Assembly (NCBI GenBank): GCA_003327425.1
Contig: QOQW01000021.1
Coordinates: 1 to 64,000, forward strand
Length of the DNA stretch: 64,000 nucleotides
DNA from: Candidatus Ozemibacter sibiricus
GTDB taxonomy: Bacteria; Muiribacteriota; Ozemobacteria; Ozemobacterales; Ozemobacteraceae
Direction: 5' to 3'
This document shows positions 43,128 to 49,345 of the stretch, one piece after another. The notes beneath the pieces were generated by a model, which was not told the DNA's origin, searched no databases, and worked only from the letters and a program-made list of their open reading frames with translations. A program made the position numbers and the translations under genes. Each line of letters starts with the position of its first letter. The first letter of the stretch is position 1.

Positions 43128-43400
43128 ATGGAAAAAACCGTCATGCTCATTCTCATCGGCAAGCGGAAAGAGACCGCCATCAATGTCCAGAAAATCCTGA
43201 CCGGATGGGGAGACATCATCAAAACCCGCCTGGGCATCCATGACGGAGCGGGCACCGCCTCCCCCGACACCGGCCTGCTCATCCTCGAGCTGGTCGGCCC
43301 CGAAGCGAAGCAGGACGAGCTGTTCCGCAAGATCTCGCTGCTGCCCGACGTCAACGCCAAGATGGTCAAGATCGGACTGCGCGAGCCGTCTGGAGCCTGA
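43128..43400 (+). CDS. TM1266-like ferredoxin-fold protein
   Basis: 90 residues. The pattern matches the small TM1266 family (sometimes called iron-only hydrogenase system regulator), an ACT/NikR-C-like fold: MEKTVMLILIGKRKETA, then VQKILTGWGDIIKTRLGIHD, LLILELVGPEAKQDELFRKI and VNAKMVKIGL. The metal or ligand it senses is unknown. GGAGG sits just before the ATG at 43128, and a good promoter precedes it. No hydrogenase gene is in the window. Confidence 0.6.
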   Translation: MEKTVMLILIGKRKETAINVQKILTGWGDIIKTRLGIHDGAGTASPDTGLLILELVGPEAKQDELFRKISLLPDVNAKMVKIGLREPSGA

Positions 43401-43451: not shown

Positions 43452-46400
43452 TCAGAAGCCAGAGAGCTGGAAGACCTCGACCTGGCGTGTTTTTCCACGA
43501 ACTTGCTTGATACCGAGGGGACGAGGGTGGGTCGTCTCGCCGGCCAGGGCGAGGGTCGGCCCGGCCACGAGGATCTGCCCGCCCGGCCGGGCGTGGGCCA
43601 GGCTGGCCAGCCGCGAAGCCAGGTTGACGGTGTCGCCGATGACGGTGTGATCGAGCCGCACCCGAGGCGACCCCACGAAGCCCAGCAGAACGGGCCCCGA
43701 GTTGATGCCGATCTTGGGGGAGATGCCCGCCAGCCGTGGGTGCCGGGAGAATTCCTCGCGCAGCTCGCGGGCATAGGCCAGAGCGGCCTGCGCTGCCACC
43801 GTGGGCTGGTCGAACCGGGCGTGCTCGAAGACCACCATGATCTTCTCCCCGAACAGCTTGTCGATCTCGCCGCCCAGGCGGGCCGCGGCCCGGCTGGCGA
43901 TGGCCAGATGGGCCTCGAGGATGGCCGCCAGCTCTTCGACCGGGGCGGCGTGCCGCCGTTCCTCGAACCCGCCCAGGCCTGAAAAGACGACGGTCGCCTC
44001 GATCTCCCGGGCGTCGCCGGCCAGCCGGTCGAGGTCGCCCTGACGCGCCGCCTGCCGCACCGCTTCCGACACGAACCGACCCAACAACCGCCCTTCCTGG
44101 AGCCGCCGGGTGAGGGCCTTGAACGCCGCCGCCACCGCTCCGAACTCATCGCCCGGCGGCAGGTCGAGCCGCAGGGTGAACTCGCCGGCCCGCACCGCCC
44201 GGAAGGCCCGGATGATCGCCTGGATCGGCAGCAGGAAGGAGGTGGCGGCGGCCAGCGCCAGCCCCAGCGCCGCCAGGAAGAACCCGCCCAGGAGGAGCCA
44301 GAAGCGCCGATGTCCAGCGGCCATCCGCTCGAGCAGGGGTTGCAGGGGCGCGGCTCCGACCAGGACGTGCCGATTCAAGTTCCGGCACGGCATGGCTTCG
44401 ATCAGCAAGCCGGCCGCCTGATCGTAGGCGCTGACCGGCAGCCCGGTCTCCACCGCCTGGTAGGCCGCTTCCCGCACCCCATCAGGCAGGTCGGGCGGGG
44501 CTCCCAGGAACGTGCGATTGAGGCGGTCGACCGCCTGGATCGGCGCGGCGCCGGTCCGCTGCCGCCGCGCCATGACCTGCCGCAGGTAGGGTTGATCCTG
44601 TTCGTTTTCGCCCCAGGTCAGCAGGCCGATGAACCGGACCACCCCATGCAGAGGGATCTCCACCTGGTAGAAGGTCTGGCGCAAGGCGCCCACCCGGCTG
44701 GCGATCAGGCTCAGCGGCTTGTAGACGAAGCTGAGGAACGCATCGTAGCCGAGCATGTTCATCATCAGGTGGTTGCCATACTCGACGATCAGCTCATGCC
44801 GATCGACCGACCGTTCCGACGTGGGCGGGCCGGCGGCGAACAATTGGGGATTCCTGATCTGCAGCGACTTCTGGCCAGCCGCCCGGAAGAAATCCTTGAC
44901 CTCCTGCGGGGTCGGGATCCGTTCGACGTTCTGGAATTCAGCCAGCCGTTCCGCCCCGAACAGGAAGAACCCCAGGACTTTGTCCAGGGAGGCCATGGTG
45001 CCGTCCGGCAACCGATGGAGGGGATGGCCCGGGGTGCGTATTCGGCGCAGGAAGCCCTGGAGCAAGGCCCCGAGGCGGCGGGCATCGCGTCGTTCCAGCC
45101 AGTCTCGTTCGCCTTGGGCGAGGTGAGTCTGGAAGGCCGGCGCGAGGAACCCACGGTGGATCATGGTGGAGACCGCGGCGGAATGCTCGGCCTGCCCGTC
45201 GTCGACCGCCTGGAATTCCTGATGGAGATGGCGGCGCGCCGCTTTCTGATCATCCTGGAAGGTTTCGCGAACATGGCGGGTCGCCAGATGGAAGAGGCCG
45301 GTCAGGGGCAGCAGGGCCGCCAGCAGGAACGCGATGCCGAAGGACACCCACAGGGGCAGGCGGTGCCACCGTCCGAAGAGGGCCAGATCGGCCGCCCCCG
45401 CCAGGATGGCGCCCAGCCAGGCGAAGACCGCGACGAGACGGAGGGCGAGCCCCAGCCGCCCGTGCAGAGGTTGCAACGGTCGGGCCAGCACCGCACAGGC
45501 CACGCCTTCCTCGCTGATCGCGGCCGCCGAGACCAGCCAGCGCTCGCCGACCACCTGGGACCGACCAGGGGCCGGCAGCCGGTGGGGAAGCAACCCGCGC
45601 AGGGCCGGTTCGGAACGCCATCCGATCGACCCGCACGGCCGGTTTCCCGGCCCTGACAGGAGGAACAGCAGGGGGGGGCGGGCCCGCCCCGGGGCCTCCC
45701 AGAGGCGGGTAGCCATCCGCAGCCGATCGCGCAGACTCAGCTTCTCCAGCCGGGTCAAGCCGAGCAGCACGATCTTCCCCTCGGCGTTCGGTCCCAGCGG
45801 CAGGGCTTCCCAGAAGAAACCCCAGGCGGCCGTCTCCTGGCGGAACTCGGCGCAGGCTCCCCAGGCCTTTTCCCGAAGGGCGGTCAGCACGAGGGGAAAG
45901 CCCAGCCGCCGCCGCCAGGCGCGTTGCAGGGCCGCGGTGGTCGCGCTGGATACCCCCCGGGGATCGAGCAGGTACGGCACGGTCGTCTCGGCCAGGGTCG
46001 CCAACCCCAGTCGGGCGCCCTGTCGCCACAAGGTCTCGACCGCGCGGCCGCCCTCCGCTTCCGAGGCAACCCGCACCAGCACGATTTCTCCCCGGAAAGC
46101 CCGCCAGACCCGGCCGACGTCGGACCGCAGAAGATCGGCCGCCCAGCCGGCCACCAGGGCCGGCGGCGTCGCCTCCGGCCGCCCTGACACCATCCGCAGA
46201 TGGCGGGCCAGGTCGAGTTCGAAGCGTTTGAGGGCCGTGCCGAACAGGCTGGCCCCGCCGATCGACCGTTCGACCAGATCGAGATCGGCCAGGTTGGCCT
46301 GCTCGGCCTCCTGCTGACGGGCGGCCCAGGTGGCGCGGTCGCCCTGATAGAGCGCCACCAGCACCACCACGAACGGAATCAGGCACACCAGGGCGAACCC

Positions 46401-46475
46401 GGCGCCGGCGCGCCAGCCCCCTCCCGAGCGTTCAGGGAAGGGCTTCCCGCCAAGAACCGCCCCAAACATGGTCAC
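43452..46475 (-). CDS. membrane class III cyclase homologue, C2-like half
   Basis: 1,007 residues from GTG 46475 (GGAGG six bases upstream; the ATG two codons on is an alternative). It has a transmembrane helix near 27-45, a large extracytoplasmic region, a hydrophobic pair near 315-370, a second extracytoplasmic region, a helix near 690-710 with a HAMP domain, then a C-terminal class III cyclase domain (about 825-1007). The first metal Asp is Gly833 (FSGLGGF) and the second is Glu877 (GEKIMVVF). The transition-state Asn951 and Arg955 (GDTVNLASR) and Lys873 are kept. That is the C2 pattern of mammalian adenylyl cyclase. It overlaps the gene of the complementary cyclase by GTGA, so the two are likely a heterodimer. 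Alone it should be inactive. Confidence 0.8.
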   Translation of the reverse strand: MTMFGAVLGGKPFPERSGGGWRAGAGFALVCLIPFVVVLVALYQGDRATWAARQQEAEQANLADLDLVERSIGGASLFGTALKRFELDLARHLRMVSGRPEATPPALVAGWAADLLRSDVGRVWRAFRGEIVLVRVASEAEGGRAVETLWRQGARLGLATLAETTVPYLLDPRGVSSATTAALQRAWRRRLGFPLVLTALREKAWGACAEFRQETAAWGFFWEALPLGPNAEGKIVLLGLTRLEKLSLRDRLRMATRLWEAPGRARPPLLFLLSGPGNRPCGSIGWRSEPALRGLLPHRLPAPGRSQVVGERWLVSAAAISEEGVACAVLARPLQPLHGRLGLALRLVAVFAWLGAILAGAADLALFGRWHRLPLWVSFGIAFLLAALLPLTGLFHLATRHVRETFQDDQKAARRHLHQEFQAVDDGQAEHSAAVSTMIHRGFLAPAFQTHLAQGERDWLERRDARRLGALLQGFLRRIRTPGHPLHRLPDGTMASLDKVLGFFLFGAERLAEFQNVERIPTPQEVKDFFRAAGQKSLQIRNPQLFAAGPPTSERSVDRHELIVEYGNHLMMNMLGYDAFLSFVYKPLSLIASRVGALRQTFYQVEIPLHGVVRFIGLLTWGENEQDQPYLRQVMARRQRTGAAPIQAVDRLNRTFLGAPPDLPDGVREAAYQAVETGLPVSAYDQAAGLLIEAMPCRNLNRHVLVGAAPLQPLLERMAAGHRRFWLLLGGFFLAALGLALAAATSFLLPIQAIIRAFRAVRAGEFTLRLDLPPGDEFGAVAAAFKALTRRLQEGRLLGRFVSEAVRQAARQGDLDRLAGDAREIEATVVFSGLGGFEERRHAAPVEELAAILEAHLAIASRAAARLGGEIDKLFGEKIMVVFEHARFDQPTVAAQAALAYARELREEFSRHPRLAGISPKIGINSGPVLLGFVGSPRVRLDHTVIGDTVNLASRLASLAHARPGGQILVAGPTLALAGETTHPRPLGIKQVRGKTRQVEVFQLSGF

Positions 46476-49345
46476 GAGCGGCCTCCGGGCAGGCCGGTCA
46501 TTTCCCAGGCATTCTGGGCCGAGAGCTGGACCCAGCCGAATTCGGGGGTTTCCTCGGCGATCGCGCCATCGGCGATGATCCCGGTGTGGCGTGCCTGCTT
46601 CGACAGCCCTTCCAGGACTTCGGCGCGCCGGACCGCCTCGCCGAAGACCTGGTGCTCCCAACGCTGGAGGCTCCGCCCGATGGTCAGGCCGATCAATTCG
46701 CCACTCGCCAGCCCGATGCCGAAGTCATAGGGGAATTTCCCCGCGGCGCGCCGGGCTTCCTGAATGGCTCTGCCCCGTTCCCGCATGGCCACCGCGGTCT
46801 CGACCGCCCGGCGGCGGTGACTCCGGTCGGCTTCGTCCTGGGCGAAGAAGACGGCTACCAGGGCGTCGCCGATGAATTTGTCGATGGTTCCCCCCCGACT
46901 CTGGACTTCCTGCGCCAACGCATCGAAGTGTCCGTTGAGCATGGCCATGACCTCGGTGGCCGGATAGGACTCGGACAGGGTGGTGAAACGCCGGATGTCG
47001 GAAACCAGCACCGTTCCGTACCATCGCCGGCTATTGGCCCCATCGCTGGCCCGGGCCAACGGATCGGCGGCCAGGGCTCCGGAAACGAACCGGCTCAGAT
47101 GGCGCCGCTCGCGCAACCCCTCCATCATCTCCTGGAAGGTGGCCGACAAGTCGGCGAACTCGCGCGTCACCCCCAGCTCTGGCGCCTGTCGCAAGTCGCC
47201 CCGGCTGGCGGCCCACAAGCTGTCGGCCAGGCACCGGAGCGGATCGAGGAAGCGCCGGATCGTCGCCCCCCCCAGCCCGACCACCGCCAGGCCCAGGAGG
47301 CTCAGCCCCACCAGGTCAAGCATACCCTCCCAGCGCGAGGCGTCTCGGAAGGGGTCGGCCGGCGCCACCGCGCCGAACAGGATGGTAGGGGCCGTCAGGC
47401 TGGGCTGGACCGTCAGATGAAACCCGCGCCGGGTGCCCGCCAAGGCGGCGCGCCGCGTCAGGTAGCCTTCGAAGGCCTGCCACAGGGTGCGACCCGCGGC
47501 GGTCCGCCAGAAGCCGGCGCGAGGGTGGGGCGCCACCGGCACGAGGGCGCCCCGCTCGAATTGGACCGCCGCGCAGGTATGCGGCTCGCCTCGGGCATTG
47601 CGTTCGGCCAGGGCCTGCGTCAGGAAGCGGCGGAAATCGGCTTCCGCCCGCCAGATCACGAAGATGAAGGCCTGCAAGCGTCCTTCCCGGACCAAGGCGG
47701 TGTGGATCTTGTAGAACCGTGTTCCCTCGAGCGATACCGCTTCGGCCTGGCCGAGCTGCCACAGGATCATGGCGCCCAGGCCGCGATCGGGATTCAGGGT
47801 CTGGACGAGATACTTGAACATCCTGGTCCGCAAGGGGATGGCGGACAGGATGCCCAGACTGCGGGCCTGATCACGGAGCTCGCTGAACCCGCCGATGGCC
47901 CAGTCCTGCAGATGATCGACCACCGCCCGCGTCGCTTCGGGGGCCAGATCGCGCGACAGGGCATGCAGGATGGTTCCCGCCTGGTCGAACACGAAAATGC
48001 CCTGGAAGGGCAGCTCGGCCGCCCGATACGCGGCGACCGCCCGGGAGAGGAAGTCGCGCGGGGGGCGAGACGACCAGTTGGCCTGCCAGTCGGTGAGCTG
48101 ACGCTCCATCACCTTCCGATACTGGTTTTTGCGGTGCTCTCCCGCCGCGTCGAGCCGCCGGAAGAAGCGGTCGACCTCCTCGCGCGCCACCGCCAGGCGG
48201 CGCTCGGTGGCGGCGGGCACGCGTTCGACGCTGTAGACCGCCCCCAGCACCAGCGGCACTCCCGCCAGCAATCCCAGAATGAGCAGGAACCCGGCGCGCA
48301 ACCGCACCACCGGCCAGGTCCAGCCGCCCGCGAGCGCCCCGCCCACCGCCAGCCCCGCCGCCAGCAGCAGCCATCCCACGCCCCGGCGCAGATGGCCGGC
48401 CAGGACCGGCGGCCATCGGGGCCCGCGGGCCAGCAAGCAGACCTCGAAGGGCCGGTCGGGGCCCAGCCCCTGCCGGATGGCCCACCAACGCCCGATGCGG
48501 CCGGCCACTCCAGGAGGCAGGGCGGACAGGCGTTGTTCCAACCCGGGCAGATCGTTCTGGAAGGCAGGCCAGCGCGCCAGGCGCGGATGCAGAATGACCT
48601 GCCGCTGGCCAGGGGGCAGGAACCACCGTCGGAACAAGGGCAGGGCGCCCCGCGGGCGCCAATGGGCCAGCAGGCTTCGCAGCTCGGCCTCGACGGGCAG
48701 GTCGGGCTGCCGCGGCAGAATCACCAGCAAGAGGCCAGCCACGCGGTGCCGATACCGCAAGGTGTTCCAGTAGATCCAGGCGGGCTCGCCGCGGAACGTG
48801 CCCGCCAGGACCCTGCCGATCCCGTGACGGCCGAGGACTTCGGTGGTCAGATAGTCGCCGAACACCCCTCGACATTTGCGCTGGGCGTCGGCACTGGCGA
48901 CCTGCCCTTGATGGGCCTGCCACACCCCGGCCATGACCGGCTCGAGCAGGACCGCCCCCTGGGATGCCAGTCCGACGCCCCGCACCATCCGCCATTTCCT
49001 GGTGCCTGGCTCGGCCCGAAACAAATAGACCGTCGGCCACGACAGATCGCGCGGGAAGCTGAGCCGCGCCGCCCGCTCCACCAGGGCCCCAGCGAGTCGT
49101 CGCGGGCCGAGATGGGCCAACAGATCGCTCAGCCGGTCACGAAACCGTTGGACGATCCGTTCATGCTGCCGTTCTATCCTGGCATGCGCCTGGATCTGCC
49201 CGATCTGCTGGCGAGCCCGGCTCTCCCAGGCCCGGAAGGCCCGCTCCTCGCGCTCGGCCGCGAACCAGGACTCCAGGGCGCCCAGCAGCACCCAGAGCAG
49301 CACCAGCAGCAGGATTCCCGCCAGCAGCAAAACGACGCGACGCAT
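46472..49345 (-). CDS. membrane class III nucleotide cyclase, C1-like half
   Basis: 957 residues from ATG 49345. A transmembrane helix is near 5-22 and a large extracytoplasmic domain covers about 25-320. Two hydrophobic segments near 315-380 are followed by a second sensor-like domain (about 385-670), a helix near 675-695, a HAMP-like linker, and a C-terminal cyclase domain (about 775-957). Both metal Asp residues are present: Asp783 (VSDIRRFTT) and Asp827 (IDKFIGDALVAVF). The Asn/Arg pair that stabilises the transition state is replaced by Arg906 and Val910 (GEAVRRAEVLEG). This is the C1 pattern of mammalian enzymes. It makes cyclic nucleotide only if it pairs with the downstream partner, whose defects are complementary. 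The start upstream of 49345 is uncertain. Confidence 0.82.
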   Translation of the reverse strand: MRRVVLLLAGILLLVLLWVLLGALESWFAAEREERAFRAWESRARQQIGQIQAHARIERQHERIVQRFRDRLSDLLAHLGPRRLAGALVERAARLSFPRDLSWPTVYLFRAEPGTRKWRMVRGVGLASQGAVLLEPVMAGVWQAHQGQVASADAQRKCRGVFGDYLTTEVLGRHGIGRVLAGTFRGEPAWIYWNTLRYRHRVAGLLLVILPRQPDLPVEAELRSLLAHWRPRGALPLFRRWFLPPGQRQVILHPRLARWPAFQNDLPGLEQRLSALPPGVAGRIGRWWAIRQGLGPDRPFEVCLLARGPRWPPVLAGHLRRGVGWLLLAAGLAVGGALAGGWTWPVVRLRAGFLLILGLLAGVPLVLGAVYSVERVPAATERRLAVAREEVDRFFRRLDAAGEHRKNQYRKVMERQLTDWQANWSSRPPRDFLSRAVAAYRAAELPFQGIFVFDQAGTILHALSRDLAPEATRAVVDHLQDWAIGGFSELRDQARSLGILSAIPLRTRMFKYLVQTLNPDRGLGAMILWQLGQAEAVSLEGTRFYKIHTALVREGRLQAFIFVIWRAEADFRRFLTQALAERNARGEPHTCAAVQFERGALVPVAPHPRAGFWRTAAGRTLWQAFEGYLTRRAALAGTRRGFHLTVQPSLTAPTILFGAVAPADPFRDASRWEGMLDLVGLSLLGLAVVGLGGATIRRFLDPLRCLADSLWAASRGDLRQAPELGVTREFADLSATFQEMMEGLRERRHLSRFVSGALAADPLARASDGANSRRWYGTVLVSDIRRFTTLSESYPATEVMAMLNGHFDALAQEVQSRGGTIDKFIGDALVAVFFAQDEADRSHRRRAVETAVAMRERGRAIQEARRAAGKFPYDFGIGLASGELIGLTIGRSLQRWEHQVFGEAVRRAEVLEGLSKQARHTGIIADGAIAEETPEFGWVQLSAQNAWEMTGLPGGRS

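Follow-up and report, generated by a model that had tools for sequence, protein, structure and literature searches.

How might two adjacent genes, each encoding a membrane cyclase with an incomplete catalytic site, specify a working enzyme? This question is raised by the window, that is, the whole 64,000-nucleotide stretch of Candidatus Ozemibacter sibiricus DNA that we analysed, in which two large genes lie in tandem on the reverse strand. The upstream gene (46472..49345 (-), ATG start, 957 aa) encodes a “C1-type” membrane cyclase that bears a pair of metal-binding Asp residues, and the downstream gene (43452..46475 (-), GTG start, 1007 aa) encodes a “C2-type” membrane cyclase that bears Lys/Thr, Asn/Arg and a C-terminal Lys. 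Reading the frames on the sequence showed that the GTG start of C2 overlaps the C1 stop codon as GTGA. The flanking genes are ordinary: truA and rplM lie on one side and genes for a DinG-like helicase and a small TM1266-like protein on the other. The latter gene (43128-43400 of the window (+)) gave a weak, sub-cut-off match to the TM1266-like iron-only hydrogenase regulator family. No Rfam matches were found in the window.

The two proteins have the same layout, TM-sensor-TM-TM-sensor-TM-HAMP-cyclase. Four hydrophobic segments in each enclose two large regions and are followed by HAMP and then by the cyclase domain; a C1/C2 pair would therefore have four sensor regions, in agreement with the four large extracytoplasmic regions described in the initial annotation. 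In C1, TM positions and predicted secondary structure define region A (residues 23-321, 48383..49279 (-)), which is predicted to be mixed alpha/beta and sensor-like, and region B (residues 371-677, 47315..48235 (-)), which is preceded by a long helix. The C1 HAMP (residues 695-746, 47108..47263 (-)) matched Pfam HAMP with an E value of 5.7e-4 and 20.6 bits, under the 25-bit cut-off, and the catalytic domain covers about residues 778-930 (46556..47014 (-)). The corresponding parts of C2 are region A (residues 43-340, 45456..46349 (-)), region B (residues 396-724, 44304..45290 (-)), a HAMP that scored above the Pfam cut-off (residues 745-794, 44094..44243 (-), E 5.3e-8) and the catalytic domain (residues 826-1004, 43464..44000 (-)).

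Both proteins matched Pfam Guanylate_cyc (PF00211) above its cut-off (37 and 45 bits vs 21.9), and the predicted fold matches were CyaB, Cya2 and CyaC. By Pfam match and fold, C1 and C2 are assigned to the class III nucleotide cyclase superfamily, and their activity is a prediction.

The full Asp plus Asn/Arg set of homodimeric class III cyclases is absent from each chain: C1 lacks the Asn/Arg and C2 lacks both Asp residues. C1 has the metal ligands Asp783 (GAC at 46997..46999 (-)) and Asp827 (46865..46867 (-)), as well as K823, and Arg906 to Val910 (46616..46630 (-)) stand in place of the transition-state Asn...Arg. In C2, the first metal Asp is replaced by Gly833 (GGC at 43977..43979 (-)) and the second by Glu877 (43845..43847 (-)). 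C2 retains the adenine-selecting Lys873 (43857..43859 (-)), Thr944 at the partner position for adenine specificity (43644..43646 (-)), and the transition-state residues Asn951 (AAC at 43623..43625 (-)) and Arg955 (43611..43613 (-)). We confirmed on the sequence all codons, residue numbers and the GTGA overlap named in the initial annotation, and its assignment of reciprocal half-sites, with the Asp pair kept by C1 and Lys, Asn and Arg kept by C2, proved correct to the codon. Orthologues of the pair in two other genomes keep the pattern: D,D with N->Q and R->V/A in one partner, and G/A,E with K,T,N,R,K in the other.

A profile search identified 53 PF00211 domains in the same genome, and the catalytic positions were read from DNA fetched around them. 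Seventeen tandem or fused pairs displayed the reciprocal C1/C2 pattern, and in seven pairs the halves were fused, sharing a single open reading frame of 2,151-2,424 codons. A half-site was lost in 35 of the 36 paired domains, while 17 of the 18 solo domains were complete (Fisher p = 6.7e-12). None of the 16 C2 domains aligned from this genome has Asp at the position of Gly833. The 17 reciprocal pairs of this genome, together with the two orthologous pairs, rule out both chance and a sequencing error in codon 833. Two further loci of the genome deserve mention. At L042 (C36), fused-type C1 and C2 lie in different overlapping frames; either the gene is split or a fused gene has undergone a frameshift. 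L039:4572-6884 (+) encodes a solo 770-aa cyclase-domain protein with a long C-terminal extension in which both half-sites are lost (G, E / R, H); judged by these residues, it is a full pseudo-cyclase.

Reciprocal losses were also co-conserved in homologues. The loci that were read contain 78 tandem or fused pairs, most of them from the Ca. Riflebacteria phylum; 71 of these were reciprocal C1/C2 pairs and none was C1/C1 or C2/C2. The 71 comprise 28 fused pairs, with both halves in one reading frame of 1,500-2,600 codons, 24 separate pairs in the order C1-C2 and 19 in the order C2-C1. In three of the remaining seven (L194, L201 and L202) a complete gene is followed by a C2-like one; in two both genes are complete (L107 and L217); at L036 a frame of 196 codons adjoins a complete gene, and L187 is truncated by the contig end. 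Except at contig ends, no stand-alone C1 or C2 was seen in the loci read. At L177, L189 and L197 an apparently stand-alone C2 gene lies directly upstream of a fused C1-C2 gene.

When named genomes were scanned and related genomes surveyed, members of the family turned up in MAGs that bear the titles Ca. Ozemobacteraceae and Ca. Riflebacteria, which assigns the family to the Ca. Riflebacteria phylum. The pairs also occur in a second family of the phylum (f3: L203, L204 and L209), and the duplication is therefore old within it. One apparent outlier, L087, is labelled Cloacimonadota; we discounted it as a case from outside the phylum, as its match counts and places equal those of a same-phylum genome (G030 = G019). 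Where the scan hit loci in other phyla, the cyclases that it matched were complete, bar one cut by a contig end. Same-strand neighbours in a cyclase-rich spirochaete genome were complete/complete (L235) or complete beside one without Asn/Arg (L236), and those of a SAR324 genome (L107) were complete. The idea that reciprocal degeneracy is a generic trait of tandem cyclases is thus unsupported by these neighbours.

Domain typing used the two Asp residues, Asn and Arg, and counts at these positions (both Asp in 71/71 C1 domains; Asn and Arg in 71/71 C2 domains) are partly circular for this reason. Three positions outside the typing serve as non-circular controls: Lys and Thr are each present in 71/71 C2 domains vs 23/71 and 34/71 C1 domains, respectively, and the C-terminal Lys in 60/71 vs 2/71. 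When the full-length proteins are aligned, only 15 positions are invariant across 69 C1 proteins, both metal Asp being among them, and only eight across 61 C2 proteins, which include Lys873, Thr944, Asn951 and Arg955. The basic residue near the triphosphate is Arg or Lys in all 71 C1 domains. The adenine Lys is missing from 48/71 C1 domains, Asn from 66/71, Arg from 62/71 and the C-terminal Lys from nearly all, and the positions of Arg906 and Val910 vary freely; nine domains keep Arg and five keep Asn, and L194 keeps both. In C2 the first metal Asp is regularly lost. At the second position 38/71 C2 domains have retained Asp, and Glu877 is therefore not the key loss, which refines the account of a lost metal pair in the initial annotation. 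As read from sequence, the conservation pattern is one of selection for a single composite site per pair.

The reading that we regard as very probable, and which the 71 reciprocal pairs support, is the one offered by the initial annotation: an obligate heterodimer of the C1/C2 type with a single active ATP site and one pseudo-site, gated by extracytoplasmic sensors. We infer that the two genes encode unlike subunits of one membrane receptor-cyclase. At the subunit interface, C1 would give the two metal-binding Asp and the basic residue near the triphosphate, and C2 would give Lys873 and Thr944 for adenine, Asn951 and Arg955 for the transition state, and the C-terminal Lys. The mirror-image second site, whose residues are lost on both sides, would be the pseudo-site, and neither subunit is expected to be active alone. 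Each subunit would read its two extracytoplasmic regions via four TM helices and HAMP; with two sensor regions per subunit, the complex could therefore integrate up to four inputs into the conversion of ATP to cAMP.

Other explanations for the paired half-sites can be considered. One possibility is that both proteins are homodimeric pseudo-cyclases with no catalytic activity: their sites would have degenerated free of selection, and their sole role would be sensing or scaffolding. Each chain alone does have an incomplete site, and the genome does contain a doubly degenerate solo domain, L039; however, the retained halves are invariant and complementary in each pair, which is not expected from drift, and like-with-like pairs were never seen among the 78. 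We consider this explanation extremely unlikely. It could also be speculated that C1 is a weakly active homodimer that works via other residues, and that C2 is a regulatory pseudo-subunit with no share in catalysis. Retention of both metal Asp and of the basic residue near the triphosphate by every C1 domain would fit this proposal, but the frequent loss from C1 of the adenine Lys, Asn, Arg and C-terminal Lys argues against it, and C2 would then have no reason for keeping exactly the complementary set. It is hardly less improbable than the first.

Another possibility is that C1 and C2 subunits assemble promiscuously across the cell's 17 pairs and so form a combinatorial network, not 17 separate receptors. 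Mean pairwise identity is 34-42% for the catalytic domains vs 13-17% for the sensors (17% for C1 region A among 69 C1 proteins), and cross-pairing is compatible with the domain sequences. On the other hand, partners are fixed by the tandem or overlapping arrangement of their genes and by the 28 fusions, and C1 and C2 distances co-vary within the genome (r 0.69, 0/5000 permutations as high), although co-duplication also explains this. The partner trees of C1 and C2 likewise mirror each other (r 0.76, 0/2000 permutations as high), a correlation that is expected from co-duplication alone. Taken together, we judge promiscuous assembly to be unlikely. A heterodimer that makes cGMP or another nucleotide in place of cAMP is very unlikely in our estimate. 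Product specificity of class III cyclases is not provable from sequence, and one of the structural matches, Cya2 (2w01), is a guanylyl cyclase; against this, the specificity positions of C2 are Lys and Thr without exception. This combination is that of many bacterial class III adenylyl cyclases.

For the heterodimer that we favour, a structural comparison was available from a fused relative. The C1-to-C2 slice of L191 (1165 aa, 28-row alignment) was modelled by AlphaFold2 with a mean pLDDT of 80 and a pTM of 0.57, and the best PDB matches of this model were human AC5, AC9 and AC8 over about 1,170-1,230 columns. Expressed as residue-equivalents (TM-score times length, arithmetic on reported scores), the match covers about 390 on AC9 vs about 175 for single-domain cyclases, so that the superposition on the mammalian enzyme seems to take in the two catalytic domains together; the model is of a relative's fused chain, not of the window pair, and AlphaFold2 has seen mammalian cyclases. 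The model of the window C1 alone (mean pLDDT 88.3) matched only single-domain PDB entries, with about 160-180 residue-equivalents.

The divergence of the sensors beside conserved catalytic domains resembles that of receptors for different ligands with a single output. Apart from HAMP-region matches, no Pfam or NCBIfam match was found in the sensor regions, which are predicted to mix alpha and beta elements. The predicted order of helices and strands suggests a Cache-type fold; this guess uses element order only, since matches to the cyclase domain prevailed in the PDB fold search. Two SpoIIE-type (PP2C-like) phosphatases of the same genome (L053:58-3003 (+) and L049:5140-7977 (-)) have N-terminal homology to the double-sensor module of C1/C2 (E about 1e-21 to 1e-30), and the input module is therefore common to cAMP and phosphatase outputs. 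The genome also has 12 reading frames with CNB domains (14 matches), which could read cAMP.

C1 and C2 also share homology in their N-terminal parts (631 columns, E 6e-31), from which it follows that they arose when a whole gene was duplicated in tandem. The tree unites every C1 domain of this genome, that of the window included, in a single clade (support 99/96). The mammalian C1 and C2 halves, represented by only two rows of partial sequences, group together (100/96) outside the clade that holds all bacterial C1/C2 domains. Common descent with the mammalian halves is thus not indicated by this tree, and because these halves fall elsewhere the design looks convergent; the mammalian-style split appears to have evolved independently in bacteria.

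Homologues that occur alone with all residues present, which the initial annotation had named as evidence against its proposal, were found only in the form of the distant four-TM cyclases L066, L129 and L073/L185. The N-terminal sensor parts of these proteins are homologous to those of C1/C2 (E 1e-8 to 1e-15), and they are likely to represent the ancestral homodimeric type. Under our proposal the ancestor would be a four-TM cyclase, probably a homodimer, which underwent whole-gene tandem duplication and then complementary loss. Later multiplication would have created a large receptor family, with many members fused as C1-C2 single chains. At L204 in G026, L176 in G005 and L171 in G003, two or three C1/C2 pairs or fusions follow one another, which suggests expansion by tandem duplication, and we infer that phase shifts in arrays such as L176 and L204 could have produced the two gene orders. 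L201 and L202 come from family f5 of the phylum; in each, a complete gene precedes one that retains the first Asp but has Gly in place of the second. The two genes of each pair are mutual nearest relatives; this rules them out as early members of the main family and therefore marks an independent case, possibly an early stage of the same process.

Mammalian AC1-AC9 (TM1-C1-TM2-C2) are alike in placing the metal Asp on C1 and Lys, Asn, Arg and the C-terminal Lys on C2, with one live and one dead site, as is predicted for the bacterial pairs; many bacterial relatives are fused in the same order, and AC5, AC9 and AC8 were the best PDB matches of the fused relative. The bacterial halves differ in having four TM helices, two large extracytoplasmic regions and HAMP, where the mammalian halves have six TM helices and a helical transducer. 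They also have Thr in place of the mammalian Asp at the adenine position, they have a separate origin in the tree, and no G-protein input is expected. By sequence, the closest PDB relatives of the window cyclases are bacterial homodimeric class III cyclases. CyaB of P. aeruginosa (3r5g), Cya2, CyaC (1wc1) and Rv1625c, which have HAMP or other inputs, share the fold and sequence family, but each of their chains carries the whole residue set and they form two sites, whereas each window chain carries half. The complete four-TM cyclases of the phylum share the TM layout and a homologous sensor part, and differ in having all catalytic residues in a single gene. Eukaryotic soluble GC alpha/beta and chytrid NeoR/RGC (PMC8815786) are likewise built from two unlike, obligatorily paired cyclase subunits, but they are eukaryotic and have other sensors and guanylyl specificity.

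The split-site mechanism itself is already known from eukaryotes. A 2022 review stated that a fused dimeric class III cyclase was unknown in bacteria (PMC9552081), and we found no report of natural bacterial heterodimeric class III cyclases in the open-access papers searched. As far as these papers show, what is new is the independent bacterial evolution of this design, including fused chains, and its expansion to 17 pairs in one genome. More tentatively, it is possible that this independent pseudoheterodimer, with its fusions, gave rise to a receptor superfamily in which up to four sensors are integrated asymmetrically and the dead site serves as an allosteric pocket like the mammalian forskolin site.

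These data suggest that little-studied bacteria use a split design like that of our own adenylyl cyclases, multiplied into a large family of cell-surface receptors. Within the lineage one finds pairs of separate genes, single-chain fusions, complete four-TM cyclases that probably resemble the ancestor and, in L201 and L202, an apparent independent early stage. The steps that lead from a homodimer to a pseudoheterodimer, and their benefit, thereby become testable in soluble bacterial domains.
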